From Cognatitamlana onchidii (lineage in GTDB: Bacteria > Bacteroidota > Bacteroidia > Flavobacteriales > Flavobacteriaceae): DNA of 64,000 nucleotides. Shown here in pieces: positions 3,997 to 46,552 of the stretch. The position numbers were made by a program, and so were the translations under genes. Position 1 is the stretch's first letter. Each line of letters begins with the position of its first letter. The stretch is taken from assembly GCF_004804355.1 (NCBI RefSeq), contig NZ_SRWZ01000002.1, positions 496,001-560,000 on the forward strand, in the 5' to 3' direction. The notes under the pieces are model-generated. The model saw only the letters and a program-made list of their open reading frames with translations, was not told the origin of the DNA and searched no databases.

Positions 3997-4959
3997 CTAA
4001 TAAACCCTATTGATGGGAGCACCTTGTAGGAACGCTTTAATATTGTTTAAGGCCGTATCCATAAGTCTTTGACGAGCTTCTTTTGGAGCCCAAGCAATAT
4101 GTGGTGTTATAATGCAATTTTTTGCCTCTAATAGAGGGTTATGCTTTCTCATGGGCTCCTCAGAGATAACATCTAAGGCTGCGTACGCTATCTTGTTTGC
4201 GTTTAAAGCCTCCTTTAAATCGTCTTCCACTATTAATGGACCTCTAGAGGTGTTAATTAGCATAACGCCATCTTTCATTTTGGCGATATTAGTTTTGTTA
4301 ATGATTCCTGAAGTCTTTTCAGTAAGAGGACAATGCAAACTAATAATATCTGAATGTTTTAAAAGTTCCTTGAAAGAAACAAATTTGCAGGTTTCACTTT
4401 CAAATTCTGGTTTAATGGTTCTGCTGTAAACAAGTACCTTTAGCCCAAAAGCCTGCGCCATTTTCGCTGTTGATTGTCCTATATTACCAAAGCCTATAAG
4501 TCCAATGGTTTTGTTTTGTAATTCAATAAGTGGGTATTTCCAGAAACTAAAATCTTTACTGTTAACCCAATCTCCTTGTTTAACAGCTAGATTGTGCCCC
4601 CCAATATGATGACACATTTCTAACAGGAGTGCCATGGTAAATTGTGCTACAGATATGGTACTGTACGCTGGTACGTTGGTAGCTACAATATTGTGTTTTC
4701 GAGCCGTTTCAACATCTACAACATTATACCCAGTAGCGAGCACACCAATGTACTTTAGGTTGTTTGATTGTTCTATAACCGCTTTATTAATAGGCGTTTT
4801 GTTGGTTAACACTATATCGGCTTCGCCTATATTAGTCAGAATATCTGACGTATTAAAAGGGGTTCTGTCAAATACCTTTAATTCGCCAAACTTTTTGATG
4901 CCTTCCCAGCTTAAATCTCCTGGATTAAGGGTGTAACCGTCAAGAACTACTATTTTCAT
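3997..4959 (-). CDS. D-2-hydroxyacid dehydrogenase (glycerate dehydrogenase-like)
   Basis: 320-residue NAD(P)-dependent dehydrogenase that reduces a 2-keto acid such as hydroxypyruvate to the D-hydroxy acid. The Rossmann motif GFGNIGQ lies near residues 156-162. The catalytic triad is Arg239 (NTSRGPLI), Glu268 (SEEP) and His287 (TPHIAWA), all present. Length and motif spacing fit the family. Among its subfamilies it most resembles hydroxypyruvate/glycerate dehydrogenases, but the substrate is not proven. It appears monocistronic. Confidence 0.9.
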   Translation of the reverse strand: MKIVVLDGYTLNPGDLSWEGIKKFGELKVFDRTPFNTSDILTNIGEADIVLTNKTPINKAVIEQSNNLKYIGVLATGYNVVDVETARKHNIVATNVPAYSTISVAQFTMALLLEMCHHIGGHNLAVKQGDWVNSKDFSFWKYPLIELQNKTIGLIGFGNIGQSTAKMAQAFGLKVLVYSRTIKPEFESETCKFVSFKELLKHSDIISLHCPLTEKTSGIINKTNIAKMKDGVMLINTSRGPLIVEDDLKEALNANKIAYAALDVISEEPMRKHNPLLEAKNCIITPHIAWAPKEARQRLMDTALNNIKAFLQGAPINRVY

Positions 4960-5046
4960 TATAATAGGGTTTAATCACAGGGACAGTTCATTATAATTTC
5001 AGAACGATTCCTATGAAGAAGAATTCAATAAATGTTGGTATTATAA

Positions 5047-5727
5047 TTATTTTAAACTTTCTAAAACAGCTTTAGCATAATTGTTGGCTAAATTATGCGA
5101 GGTTTCAACATTTTCAATTTTTGATGTTACCACTGCAACAAGCTGCTCTTTTTCAGGTAAGTCTAGATTGTATGTTCTGGTTTCTAATACATATATTTTT
5201 GCAGTTTGTATGTCATAGGTAGGTTCCTCATATACGCCTTTAAAAGCCGGTGTAGGAATAGGAGAGGTGTAAAAACCATAAAATCCTACAGTGTTTATGT
5301 ACGGATGAGCTCCTAAAGTAGTTCCTGCCTCATATCCTCCAGAAACCGATGTTTTAGAAAGCGTCTCAACTCCAATAACAGCGCTATAAACTACCGCATT
5401 GAAGCCTTCTTTTTTGAAAAGTGCTTTTATTCTGTCTATATCGGCTTCGGAAATAGAATCGTTAGGATTTAATTCAGGAAATTTTGAGTAGCTCTCAATA
5501 GCATTAAAATTAGCACCTCTAAGCTTTTTTGCAATTTTGGCCTCATACGTTTGTCTGAGTTGGTCTTTTTTTGCCTTTACTATTACCAATATATTTTTGG
5601 AAGCTATTGTTTCTATATTATCAGAGGACCATGAGTTCACAACTTTCACGGTTGAGCAGTTTGAAAAACATATGGCAAGAACAGCTACTAATAAAAGTTT
5701 TGCAAAAGGCGTATTTTTTTTAGACAT
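5047..5727 (-). CDS. envelope lipoprotein, paralogue of the gene at 45742
   Basis: 226-residue protein with a lipoprotein signal: a hydrophobic stretch, then the lipobox-like CFSNC (Cys about 24). The mature part starts STVKVVNSW and contains an SEADIDRIKALFKKEGFNAV segment. It shares this layout, a VxxSWS motif after the cysteine, and a late ExRxYDL..E.QLVAVV-type segment with the 228-residue lipoprotein at 45742-46428. It may belong to the DUF4136-like envelope lipoproteins, from memory of the family rather than a search. Function unknown. Confidence 0.8.
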   Translation of the reverse strand: MSKKNTPFAKLLLVAVLAICFSNCSTVKVVNSWSSDNIETIASKNILVIVKAKKDQLRQTYEAKIAKKLRGANFNAIESYSKFPELNPNDSISEADIDRIKALFKKEGFNAVVYSAVIGVETLSKTSVSGGYEAGTTLGAHPYINTVGFYGFYTSPIPTPAFKGVYEEPTYDIQTAKIYVLETRTYNLDLPEKEQLVAVVTSKIENVETSHNLANNYAKAVLESLK

Positions 5728-42457: not shown

Positions 42458-42488
42458 TTTGTATTGTTTTTTTAACTTAATATTTTTG
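42458..42488 (+). promoter_or_regulatory. promoter of the riboswitch transcript
   Basis: TTTG (42458-42461), a 19-base spacer and TATTTTTG (42481-42488): full consensus match. The predicted start (about 42492) falls at the first base of the riboswitch P1 stem. The remainder of the gap from 42326 shows nothing recognised. Confidence 0.75.
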
Positions 42489-42492
42489 TAAA

Positions 42493-42641
42493 GTTATTAA
42501 GGTTTAGCATGAGCTAATAAAAAGAAGGAATTGTGTTAAAATCACAAGCTGTCGCGCAACTGTATTTAATGGTTAGATACCATTATGAGCCAGATACTTC
42601 CCTTAATAGATAACCAATGGTGCTTTCGCGATTTGAAGCAG
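42493..42641 (+). ncRNA. cobalamin (B12) riboswitch
   Basis: Core elements in order: P1 strand TTAAGG (with CCTTAA at 42601-42606), hairpin TAGC-ATGA-GCTA (42505-42516), GGAA (42527-42530), hairpin TTGTG/CACAA (42531-42547), the GCTGTCGCGCAACTGT motif (42548-42563), hairpin TAATGG/CCATTA (42567-42585) and the B12 box GAGCCAGATAC (42587-42597). A downstream hairpin TGCTT/GAAGCA presents CGCG in its loop, complementary to CGCG of the core loop, as required for the L5-L13 kissing contact. An AT-rich hairpin plus T6 (42667-42706) may be part of the switch output. The downstream gene is the LOV-like protein 93 bases away. Confidence 0.88.
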
Positions 42642-42733
42642 GTCAGGATGTTTTCATTTTCCAACGAGTTTAATTGATTAAGTATTAAACTGCTGATAGC
42701 TTTTTTGTTGCAAGCACGCAAATTTACTTAACT

Positions 42734-43216
42734 ATGAAAACAAAACAAGGGCCGTTAAAAAGTTGGGATATTTACGCCATGTATTTATCAAATCAGTCTA
42801 AATCTTTTAGGATTAATGAGGACATTAAAACACTTTCTATCTTTAAAGATAAATATAATTGGAATTTTAATATAAGCTCCACACTTCATGATATAGAGTT
42901 TGATGCTATTGTTTTAACTTCTGCAAATAGAGAGATTGCATGGGTTAACAGGGGATTTACAAAAATGACGGGGTATCCCATTAAATTAGCAATTGGCAAA
43001 AAGCCAAGTTTTTTACAAGGAGAACAAACAAGTAAAGCTTCTTTAGGCAGAATAAGAAAGAGGCTAAAGGATGGCTCTCCGTTTACAGAGTATATTTTAA
43101 ATTATAAGAAGAATGGAAGTCTTTACAAATGTGAATTGAATATCTATCCAATTAAGAATTATGAGAATACAATTACACACTTTATAGCTTTCGAAAAAGA
43201 GTTGAAGTATATATAA
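42734..43216 (+). CDS. LOV-like PAS protein lacking the photoactive cysteine
   Basis: 160 residues, a single PAS domain (about 52-155) with a helical N-cap. It shows LOV landmarks: WVNRGFTKMTGYP, FLQGEQTS, IRKRLKDGSPF, ILNYKKNGSLY and HFIAFEKEL. The canonical GRNCRFLQ reads GKKPSFLQ (88-95), so the adduct-forming cysteine is Pro91, and the usual late flavin-contact Gln is Glu. Flavin binding is therefore doubtful. There is no output domain, so it would act through protein contacts. It is preceded by a B12 riboswitch. Confidence 0.8.
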   Translation: MKTKQGPLKSWDIYAMYLSNQSKSFRINEDIKTLSIFKDKYNWNFNISSTLHDIEFDAIVLTSANREIAWVNRGFTKMTGYPIKLAIGKKPSFLQGEQTSKASLGRIRKRLKDGSPFTEYILNYKKNGSLYKCELNIYPIKNYENTITHFIAFEKELKYI

Positions 43217-43320: not shown

Positions 43321-44142
43321 ATGAAATTAAATTTAGCTTTTTGGAAGTTAATTTTTCTCTTATGCTTTTTGTTCACGAATCAATTGTTTTTTGCACAGAA
43401 CAAAGAAATAACACTTAATGACAGTACGGTAATCGGAATTGTTGAAAAGAAAAGTGAAAAAGATAAAATTAATGATATCCTATTACCTTATGGTTGGATA
43501 GACTATAATGCAGAATATTATACTGTTGATGCCAAGAACAGTTATTTAGATCATCACTTTATATACCAACCATACCTTAGTAAAGATCAGGTATTTCAAA
43601 TTGAGTTAGGTCTCGTAAATACATTTACGGATGCTCAACAATACTTTTCGCCAAGCGATTTAGATATAACCTATCAACGAAATATTACACCTAAAAACAA
43701 AAAAGATGTAGGCTACGTCGGCATGATTGCAATAGCCAAACTTACTATACCTACAGGCAGGGAAGAATATTTTAGTGGTTCTGATAATTGGGCTTTTGAG
43801 CCACAAGTAGGAGCGCAGTGGAGTGTATTTAATCCAGATTGGTTAATTTCTGGAATTTTACGCTATAGATATCATTTTGCGACGTTACCAGAGAAGTCAT
43901 TAGCGAATAATTATGTTAGAGTTGAATCGTTCTTTGGATTCGAAAATGATAAATTCTGGATTTTCGGATCCCCAGACTATAGGTATACCCCTAAAACATC
44001 CAAAAGCAACTTGTTTTTTAGTGCTTTGGTTGGTTATAAATTTTCAAGACAGTTCATTATTAAAGGGAGCTATAAACCTAGGCTAGAAGGGAATGATTTT
44101 TATCGTTCCATGTTATCTTTTGGCTTTACGCTGTTTTTTTAG
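43321..44142 (+). CDS. putative outer-membrane beta-barrel protein
   Basis: 273 residues. A signal peptide (about 1-26, ending LFFAQ) is followed by alternating polar/aromatic beta strands throughout, ending in a terminal Phe-rich strand (SFGFTLFF), as in outer-membrane barrels. No family recognised. It lies between the LOV-like gene and a FadL-like porin gene on the same strand (35 bases before the latter). Confidence 0.72.
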   Translation: MKLNLAFWKLIFLLCFLFTNQLFFAQNKEITLNDSTVIGIVEKKSEKDKINDILLPYGWIDYNAEYYTVDAKNSYLDHHFIYQPYLSKDQVFQIELGLVNTFTDAQQYFSPSDLDITYQRNITPKNKKDVGYVGMIAIAKLTIPTGREEYFSGSDNWAFEPQVGAQWSVFNPDWLISGILRYRYHFATLPEKSLANNYVRVESFFGFENDKFWIFGSPDYRYTPKTSKSNLFFSALVGYKFSRQFIIKGSYKPRLEGNDFYRSMLSFGFTLFF

Positions 44143-44177: not shown

Positions 44178-45596
44178 ATGAGATTAAGGATTAGGTTTTT
44201 GTTAATTGTGTTTTTCGTTGGAGGCCTGATTGCGGCTCAAGAAAATAATTATTGGAATTTTCATCAGGGCGCTATTGCTTCCCTTACCGGTGGTGCTGCT
44301 GTTGCAAATGCAAAAAATCAAGCGGCAGCTTATTATAATCCAGGGTTATTACCTTTTGTTAAAAATAATAGCGTGTCTTTAAACATGCAGTCTTTCTTTT
44401 TTAATAGCCTACTTATCGAAAATGGAGCAGGAGATCATATAGATTTGGAACAATCGGCTGTAGGTATTGTGCCATCTAGTTCTTACGGTGTTATAAAAAA
44501 CAATGAAGAAAGCAAATGGACGCTTTCATTTGGAATTATCACGCAAGCCTTTTCCGATTATGGTTTAGGGGCATATAATGAAACTCAATTGGATGTTATT
44601 AGTAGTAATCCTGGAGAGGAGACCTATTTGGCAAACTACAACTATAATACCAGACTGAAAGAAAATTGGTTAGGACTTGCTACAGGCTACGAAATCAATA
44701 AAAACTTTGGGGTAGGCTTAACTACCTTTATAGTGGCAAAAAGTATTGATTATATTCAAAGCACCAACGCCAGCGCCATTTTAGTGGATCAGGAAAATGA
44801 TTTTGTTAGAACTATAGCCAATACTTCTTTAAATGAAAACTTTGCTTATAGGTCTGCTGGTTTAGTATTTAAGCTGGGACTTTCTTATAGAATAGAAAAC
44901 CTAAGGCTAGGATTAACCTTATCCAGTCCTCTAATTAATGTTGATTTTATTGGGAAAGGAAATATTAATAGGGAGTTGTTTATTACTTCAGATAACACTG
45001 ATGAGAGTAATATAAGGCAAGTTGCATTTCAAGAAAAAATTAATACCATAAATAAGCTTCCTTTTGCTTTAGATTTAGGTGCGACATACCAATTTGGTAA
45101 GACAGAACTTTCTGCTAGAATTGCCCATTATTTAGGAGTAGGAACCTATGAATTAATAGAAAAGGAAGAATTCGATAATTCAAGTATGTTTAACCAATTT
45201 AGTGCTTTTGGTGTTCCGAAAACAGCCATTAAATCGGTAACAAATTTTGGAATTGGATTGGCTCAAGAATTGAATGCAAAAACAACCTTGTATCTGGGTT
45301 TTAATACGGATAATAACAGTTTTGACGATTCTAAACTTAATAGGGCGACCGATTTTGTTCCTTCCATTTCTCAATGGGATTTGATGAATGTTTCAGCAGG
45401 ATTAAGCCATTATTTAAAGCATTTTCAGCTTATTTATGGGCTATCATATATTTCTGGTAGGAGCACAGGAGATTCTCAAATTATAAATATTTCAGATCCT
45501 TTAGAAGAAAACTTCCTTTTAGGCGAGCTAACTAGTAATACCAAAACCTCAATAAATCAACTTAATTTAAATATTGGCTTTGTTTATTATTTTTAG
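44178..45596 (+). CDS. FadL/OMPP1-like outer-membrane transport protein
   Basis: 472 residues. Signal peptide (about 1-21). The N-terminal region GGAAVANAKNQAAAYYNPGLL is the FadL-family segment that contacts the substrate channel. The remainder is beta-barrel-like and ends with an aromatic strand (NIGFVYYF). The family takes up hydrophobic compounds such as long-chain fatty acids across the outer membrane; substrate here unknown. Probably transcribed with the barrel gene before it. Confidence 0.75.
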   Translation: MRLRIRFLLIVFFVGGLIAAQENNYWNFHQGAIASLTGGAAVANAKNQAAAYYNPGLLPFVKNNSVSLNMQSFFFNSLLIENGAGDHIDLEQSAVGIVPSSSYGVIKNNEESKWTLSFGIITQAFSDYGLGAYNETQLDVISSNPGEETYLANYNYNTRLKENWLGLATGYEINKNFGVGLTTFIVAKSIDYIQSTNASAILVDQENDFVRTIANTSLNENFAYRSAGLVFKLGLSYRIENLRLGLTLSSPLINVDFIGKGNINRELFITSDNTDESNIRQVAFQEKINTINKLPFALDLGATYQFGKTELSARIAHYLGVGTYELIEKEEFDNSSMFNQFSAFGVPKTAIKSVTNFGIGLAQELNAKTTLYLGFNTDNNSFDDSKLNRATDFVPSISQWDLMNVSAGLSHYLKHFQLIYGLSYISGRSTGDSQIINISDPLEENFLLGELTSNTKTSINQLNLNIGFVYYF

Positions 45597-46486: not shown

Positions 46487-46552
46487 ATGGAAATGTTATC
46501 ATTTCATTTAAACACACCCAATGGTTTTGTATTTTTACAAGAAAAAAGAACC

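Follow-up and report, generated by a model that had tools for sequence, protein, structure and literature searches.

We have analyzed a 64,000-nucleotide stretch of the genome of Cognatitamlana onchidii (hereafter the window), in which a cobalamin riboswitch precedes the gene of a small LOV-like PAS protein. With good confidence, we read it as a conserved and functional riboswitch that is predicted to turn OFF the translation of a cysteine-less LOV-like protein when B12 is plentiful, this protein being in part of its family a member of a B12 regulon and, most likely, an adaptor. Computation establishes the riboswitch itself and that it is conserved and recurs in other B12 operons, and likewise that the protein has a LOV fold with changed residues. 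The switch is of a known kind, and the target is new and unusual.

A cobalamin riboswitch without P6 extension

The original prediction had placed a near-complete B12 riboswitch upstream of the LOV-like gene and proposed a check by Infernal with the Rfam Cobalamin model. The covariance search with RF00174 bears this out, since the match in the window (Table 1) covers the full model (1-189) with a score of 47.5 bits and an E value of 8.6e-9, the gathering score being 31.5. The orthologous leaders of L004, L006 and L007 were also above the gathering score, and that of L005 was below it. One correction has to be made: the aptamer has no P6 extension. Actually, the spacing between CUGUA and AGCCAG is about 15-25 nt in the window and 24 relatives (by reading), while in nine other copies (L001, L007, L062, L064, L068, L082, L098, L103 and L104) it is 62-158 nt. 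Among these long-spacing copies, those of L007, L068 and L082 stand likewise directly 5' of the LOV-like gene. The window aptamer shares the absence of this extension with class II cobalamin riboswitches. The available portion of PMC8123684 describes a MeCbl class lacking it, and suggests that riboswitches for the light-stable aquocobalamin originated in marine bacteria under strong light.

The aptamer core, P13 and L13 were nearly invariant in 25 leaders despite their diverged flanks. RNAalifold on the leader alignment (A4) gave 22 pairs, of which just one had changed on both sides, so that the aptamer helices rest on Rfam and not on covariation within the clade.

A Bacteroidota-type promoter lies at the 5' side. 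The TAnnTTTG box appears just 5' of the aptamer in 20 of the 26 orthologous leaders (5.8% in simply shuffled segments) and is absent from L025, L027-L029, L036 and L048; a TTG 18-22 nt upstream of the box was found in only 6 of the 26. Because the Bacteroidota box is placed at -12 to -5 in the accessible text of PMC9723704, transcription is predicted to start near 42493, 3 nt before P1 (42496).

Table 1. Features of the riboswitch and the LOV-like gene in the window
Feature	Position	Strand	Basis
Bacteroidota-type promoter TTG-N19-TATTTTTG	42459..42488	+	sequence reading; box recurrence in orthologous leaders
Promoter parts: TTG; -7 box TATTTTTG	42459-42461; 42481-42488		by reading
Cobalamin aptamer P1-P6, without P6 extension	42496..42607	+	Rfam match 42483-42619 (+)
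L5 loop UCGCG, partner of L13	42552..42556	+	loop complementarity, compensated changes
P13 hairpin GCUUU-CGCGAUUU-GAAGC	42622..42639	+	kept in 25 aligned leaders with variation; L5/L13 compensation
L13 CGCGA	42627-42631	+	complementary to L5
UGUUUUCAU, predicted partner of the start codon region (42734-42742) with P13 formed	42649..42657	+	constrained folding
Anti-P13 elements, predicted partners of the P13 strands in the fold without P13	42690..42719	+	constrained folding of 26 leaders, shuffle control
Anti-P13 CUGCU; AAGCAC	42690-42694; 42712-42717	+	by reading
Single-domain LOV-like PAS protein, 160 aa	42734..43216	+	Pfam, AlphaFold, Foldseek, profile search

A predicted translational OFF switch

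RF00174 riboswitches have an L5-L13 kissing loop, and here the two loops are complementary with compensated changes. In 58 distinct riboswitch copies from the fetched loci they co-vary, with fully matched sets UCGCG/CGCGA (30 copies), UUCCCG/CGGGA (6), ACGCG/CGCGU (2) and UUGCG/CGCAA (1) and the bulged pair UCCCG/CGUGGA (2), counts that carry some bias from a script that picked the best complement near CTT/CTC. The other 17 copies comprise 14 pairs with a mismatch, wobble or bulge and three without a convincing partner. In L041 both loops have diverged, UGUGA replacing the CGCGA of L13.

We folded the 26 leaders, aptamer and ribosome left out, with P13 either forced or forbidden. The mean unpaired probability of the start region (-14 to +3) was 0.43 with P13 and 0.68 without it, where the start codon is in several leaders a choice between two ATGs. 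The region was freer without P13 in 22 of the 26 leaders (the mean difference in shuffled leaders was 0.01), the exceptions being L026, L039, L041 and L044; in L033, L034 and L053 the gain was at most 0.03. In the window, forcing P13 gives a fold whose start codon is paired with the element at 42649-42657, and in the alternative fold P13 pairs with sequence up to 42719 and the start is freed. Leader folding thus predicts a translational OFF switch. With B12 bound, L5 would kiss L13 and P13 would be held, the start-codon region would pair with upstream leader sequence and translation would be OFF. Without B12, both strands of P13 would pair with the leader farther down, the start codon would be freed and the LOV-like protein would be made in B12-poor cells.

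Other control elements were considered and set aside. The terminator scan gave no intrinsic terminator between 42300 and 42734, and the hairpin upstream of the start codon leads into the start itself and not into a U run (by eye). A uORF at 42648-42677 (MFSFSNEFN by reading) was dropped, being not kept in the leaders of the relatives as judged by eye.

Conservation of the riboswitch next to the LOV-like gene

The original prediction called for a survey of riboswitch-LOV pairs in other Flavobacteriaceae, and such pairs do recur. A cobalamin riboswitch is located directly 5' of the orthologue in 27 of 80 loci, made up of 24 in the short form of the window and two in a longer form (L068 and L082), all counted by motif within 600 nt upstream of the gene, and L050, found with the covariance model R1. 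This model was built from the window and 24 leaders, with the structure hand-drawn on the Rfam layout, and we applied it to L001, L007 and the 56 loci outside the short-form group. Besides adding L050, it confirms L068 and L082, and all of its 10 matches in LOV loci of the 80-locus set are upstream and on the strand of the gene. A motif match in L061 had no B12 box and no R1 match, and was left out of the count. The genera in the conserved loci include Algibacter, Lacinutrix, Flavivirga, Wocania, Gaetbulibacter, Hyunsoonleella and Seonamhaeicola, and L068 is a Crocinitomicaceae MAG. Outside the 80-locus set the riboswitch stands directly before the gene in L167 and L207.

The pair is conserved; B12 control of the gene is not universal. 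In the tree, 43 of 82 decidable orthologues had no riboswitch in the stretch examined, mostly 4 kb upstream, so that riboswitches farther up would be missed; L051, L073 and L088, with less than 1 kb of upstream sequence, were left undecided. A further 40 loci, picked mainly among those without a nearby match, gave two riboswitches, one of them (L240) repeating the genome of L166. The link has also been lost, since L037, L045 and L049 have no R1 match inside the same part of the protein tree. In the tree of 85 proteins it changes 10 times and well-supported branches force at least three changes, rough numbers given a quick tree in which 32 branches have weak support and some (L166, L091, L077) are long.

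At least 17 of 102 single-domain genes (94 genomes) have an R1 match no more than 2.6 kb upstream on the same strand, a lower bound in which places inside large multi-domain frames are left out. None of the 73 riboswitch places compared with these genes (the strongest ones, and weaker ones mainly from genomes with a LOV-like gene) was on the opposite strand at a distance of 20 kb or less. In three genomes a riboswitch lies on the same strand as the LOV-like gene, about 7.8 kb 3' of it, and in the two examined (L169 and L170) this riboswitch precedes metE; these were not counted as linked.

The LOV-like gene inside B12-controlled operons

It had been stated that none of the usual targets of B12 riboswitches is downstream. 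This is true of the window, but elsewhere a cobalamin riboswitch heads operons in which the LOV-like gene follows metE or a TonB receptor, and by this it joins the usual B12 regulon. Such operons were found in seven of the 80 loci. L062, L071 (Echinicola) and L103 (Muricauda) have riboswitch, metE and LOV-like gene in this order, with a CWC protein ahead of the LOV-like gene in L103; Pfam confirms MetE in L062 (PF01717, PF08267). In L064, L076 and L104 (Winogradskyella) and L098 (Croceivirga) a TonB receptor takes the place of metE. Between receptor and LOV-like gene, L064, L076 and L098 encode proteins that fall into a single cluster (the one of L064 has DUF5074), and a BtuF-like cluster gene (by reading) diverges in all four. 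The R1 scores were weak in L076 (23.7 bits), L098 (28.4) and L064 (29.2). The same orders appear outside the 80-locus set in L166 (metE) and L168 (TonB receptor). Counting the direct one, the gene therefore recurs under B12 control in three arrangements and is, in part of the family, a member of the B12-limitation regulon, Cyclobacteriaceae and Crocinitomicaceae included.

Behind this type of riboswitch we have also found ribonucleotide reductase small and large subunits and a 4HBT thioesterase, together with metE and TonB receptors. The thioesterase cluster is directly 3' of the LOV-like gene in 10 of the 80 loci (Pfam in L059), the two frames overlap in L062, and L207 has the order riboswitch, LOV-like gene, thioesterase.

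Several other loci deserve a mention in their own right. In the Flavobacteriaceae loci L177-L180 and L182-L184 a short cobalamin riboswitch is located before an nrdB-like gene (Pfam in L180); an nrdA-like gene follows in L177-L180 and L182-L183 and not in L184, whose nrdB frame is short, and in L180 and L183 a 4HBT-type thioesterase lies between the two. L173 has a cobalamin riboswitch at 5282-5506 (-) directly before a 4HBT thioesterase (4805-5191) of the kind found 3' of the LOV-like gene elsewhere. In L165 (732-3083) a riboswitch of 118 bits with R1 lies before two genes, one epimerase-like and one for a 329-aa protein that carries the MetE catalytic domain (PF01717), and in L175 (1800-5785) a cobalamin riboswitch precedes frames of 424 and 595 aa that are maybe ribonucleotide reductase parts (by reading). 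L208 (2971-4952) has a metE-like frame of 431 aa, the C-terminal half of which seems missing, then the LOV-like gene, a CWC-like protein and a thioesterase, and gave no riboswitch with R1. In the Zunongwangia loci L059, L067 and L072, genes of the BrkB and DUF2805 clusters come before the LOV-like gene and a thioesterase after it (Pfam in L059).

A dinB-like gene (by reading) comes before the LOV-like gene in L201-L205, L215, L219 and L240, and in the genome of L166 and L240 the order is dinB-like gene, riboswitch, metE, LOV-like gene. Except for this genome, no R1 match appeared in the loci examined that have the gene beside dinB-like genes. Since the dinB-linked copies without a match come from five genomes of one genus (g147, perhaps Flavobacterium), L215 and L219, the job of the protein is probably wider than B12.

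The LOV-like protein

The single-domain LOV-like protein of the original prediction has proved to have one PAS domain (PF13426, E 1.5e-13) and a LOV fold, but not the LOV photo-cysteine. AlphaFold gave a mean pLDDT of 91, with an N-terminal helix (11-41) and the PAS core. LOV domains rank first in both Foldseek and profile searches and are the closest solved relatives among the matches listed; each of the 50 entries in the Foldseek listing is a LOV structure or a variant derived from one. In the alignment to the YtvA LOV domain (2pr5) the adduct-forming cysteine corresponds to P91, the Asn of 'FWN' to C133 and the Gln to E154 (the Gln by reading). The cysteine lies in NCRFLQG in 2pr5, which we take to be the adduct-cysteine motif of LOV domains.

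The invariance of P91 in alignment A5 is circular, because the motif used to find the loci demands Pro at the cysteine position. We have therefore used a set without motif filter, obtained by profile or protein search, with the single-domain matches in L004-L024, L105-L134 and L193-L240 (88 proteins, 66 distinct, some from genomes also in the 80-locus set). P91 was present in 64 of the 66, the exceptions being one Cys (L019) and one Ala; C133 was found in 65, E154 and N123 in all 66, and H149 in 56. Judged by these residues, the protein is not a canonical photoreceptor and flavin binding is doubtful; it seems to form a coherent family that left photoreceptor chemistry behind.

A profile of seven relatives matched the family in 111 of the 397 genomes of Flavobacteriaceae (E<=1e-20), in some cases within a larger protein. 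Of 395 genomes sampled from the phylum, 27 had a match at E<=1e-30, and only five of these were outside Flavobacteriaceae, two of them inside large proteins. The protein is thus rare outside the family in this sample.

Downstream genes and B12 in the host genome

The outer-membrane barrels 3' of the gene had been suggested as perhaps part of the unit, but they do not belong to the conserved one. Among the frames of the 80 loci, that at 43321 had no homologue and that at 44178 had one in L025 only, and in 13 of the 24 short-riboswitch loci the next downstream frame is on the opposite strand. The frame at 44178-45596, previously called FadL-like, gave no Pfam family at E<=0.1 and just two weak PorV/PorQ-type NCBIfam matches below their cutoffs. 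An outer-membrane link is not supported. The terminator scan found no terminator between 43216 and 43321, and read-through into the barrel genes is possible in this one genome. Farther on, the frame at 46487 is a PaaI-like thioesterase beside menaquinone genes (by reading).

The 3.42-Mb host genome has two RF00174 matches, that of the window included. The second stands before a TonB receptor at an apparent B12 salvage locus with cobU-, cobT-, cobS-, btuF- and btuC-like genes (all by reading; TonB receptor and Peripla_BP_2 by Pfam). Since metH is present and no match to MetE (PF01717) was found in the genome, methionine synthesis of the host should depend on B12. Three frames matched a B12-binding domain (896, 715 and 1148 aa), none of them CarH-sized.

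Possible roles and alternative readings

We infer that the LOV-like protein belongs with metE, TonB receptors and partly the 4HBT thioesterase to a regulon of Bacteroidota B12 limitation, most likely as a soluble ligand-sensing adaptor. It would use its PAS pocket (N123, C133, E154) and N-terminal helix to act on some step of importance to cells short of B12. In a more specific version it would be a dedicated B12-limitation sensor, LOV-derived with the photo-cysteine lost, made only without B12 and reading a B12-linked ligand, which may be an acyl-CoA, a corrinoid bound through C133/E154 or the redox state of a flavin. The RNA and the protein sensor would then form a two-step B12-status circuit in part of the Bacteroidota; we regard this as rather unlikely. 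Somewhat doubtful as well, if a serious possibility, is that the protein and the 4HBT thioesterase together relieve acyl-CoA stress in B12 shortage. Without B12 methylmalonyl-CoA mutase stalls, and propionyl- and methylmalonyl-CoA pile up. The thioesterase directly behind the gene, with overlapping frames in one locus, its own position behind the riboswitch in L173 and, within nrd operons, in L180 and L183, and the gene order of L207 point in this direction. Yet the direct pair is absent from 70 of the 80 loci, no such thioesterase adjoins the gene in the window, and the best match in the host genome is 31% identical.

That the protein is a blue-light receptor, raised by the riboswitch in the light because light destroys the cofactor form of B12, is in our opinion unlikely. 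LOV domains are its nearest folds and sequences, C133 is nearly universal and could serve as adduct residue instead (or photoreduction could stand in for the adduct), and a structure has been solved for an engineered CagFbFP in which the Gln is replaced by Glu (6ywi). The absence of the P6 extension recalls the MeCbl class and the suggested marine origin under strong light, as far as the excerpt of PMC8123684 goes; a DUF2805 cluster gene adjoins the LOV-like gene in the three Zunongwangia loci; and in Pseudomonas a short LOV protein acts on a LitR/CarH protein, according to the portion of PMC9758184 at hand. However, the adduct cysteine is Pro in nearly all sequences and the two flavin-contacting residues, Asn and Gln, are likewise changed; the host frames with a B12-binding domain are not of CarH size; and the metE and TonB-receptor operons, in which no light genes were recognised by reading among those examined, point to B12 metabolism. 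The light link, which comes mainly from the fold, is weak. It is very unlikely that the riboswitch is a relic no longer binding B12: the score is only 47.5 bits, the P6 extension has been lost and both loops have diverged in L041, but core, P13 and L13 hardly vary between diverged flanks and the loop changes are compensated. Hardly credible at all is a riboswitch serving the barrel genes with the LOV-like gene as passenger, a reading that the missing terminator would favor, because the barrels have next to no homologues in the 80 loci while riboswitch and LOV-like gene stay together.

The preferred reading, an OFF switch over an adaptor of B12 limitation, would matter in two ways. The recurrence of a sensor-type protein behind B12 riboswitches, in three gene arrangements or more, suggests that the cell responds to B12 shortage by a step not yet recognised, and the protein looks like an unrecognised part of how flavobacteria cope with it. 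Besides, it offers a clear test case for what cysteine-less LOV domains do.

Comparison with known systems

Our search of the open-access literature turned up no LOV/PAS gene described behind a B12 riboswitch, no full-text paper with 'cobalamin riboswitch' together with 'LOV domain', and none on the recurrence of the gene with metE or TonB receptors or on the cysteine-less LOV family. The functional survey in PMC3766115 lists, in its accessible part, B12 synthesis, B12 or cobalt transport and isozymes as targets. As far as the available portions of PMC10907184 and PMC8123684 describe them, class II or env8-type riboswitches have in common with the window the P3-P6 core, the L5-L13 kissing loop, P13, a predicted translational repression and the lack of a P6 extension. 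Unlike them, the window riboswitch has a PAS protein as target. Besides, in env8 the P13 loop holds the ribosome site, whereas in the window about 95 nt separate P13 from the start codon, which would be masked by a competing pairing. The repressing metE corrinoid riboswitch of Priestia megaterium acts by transcription termination in the text available of PMC10653944, while translation control is predicted here. The mycobacterial B12 riboswitch before ppe2 likewise precedes a gene of uncertain function in the excerpt of PMC11260477, the protein being unrelated. On the protein side, the LOV photoreceptor YtvA (2pr5) shares the fold, and the window protein has Pro for the adduct Cys and two flavin contacts changed. 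PmSB-LOV, which works with a class II LitR (PMC9758184, accessible part), is also a short LOV protein, but no LitR or CarH was recognised adjoining the window gene. A further comparison is with HeuR, described in the portion available of PMC5111405 as a PAS regulator of heme uptake, likewise a PAS protein tied to the supply of a cofactor.
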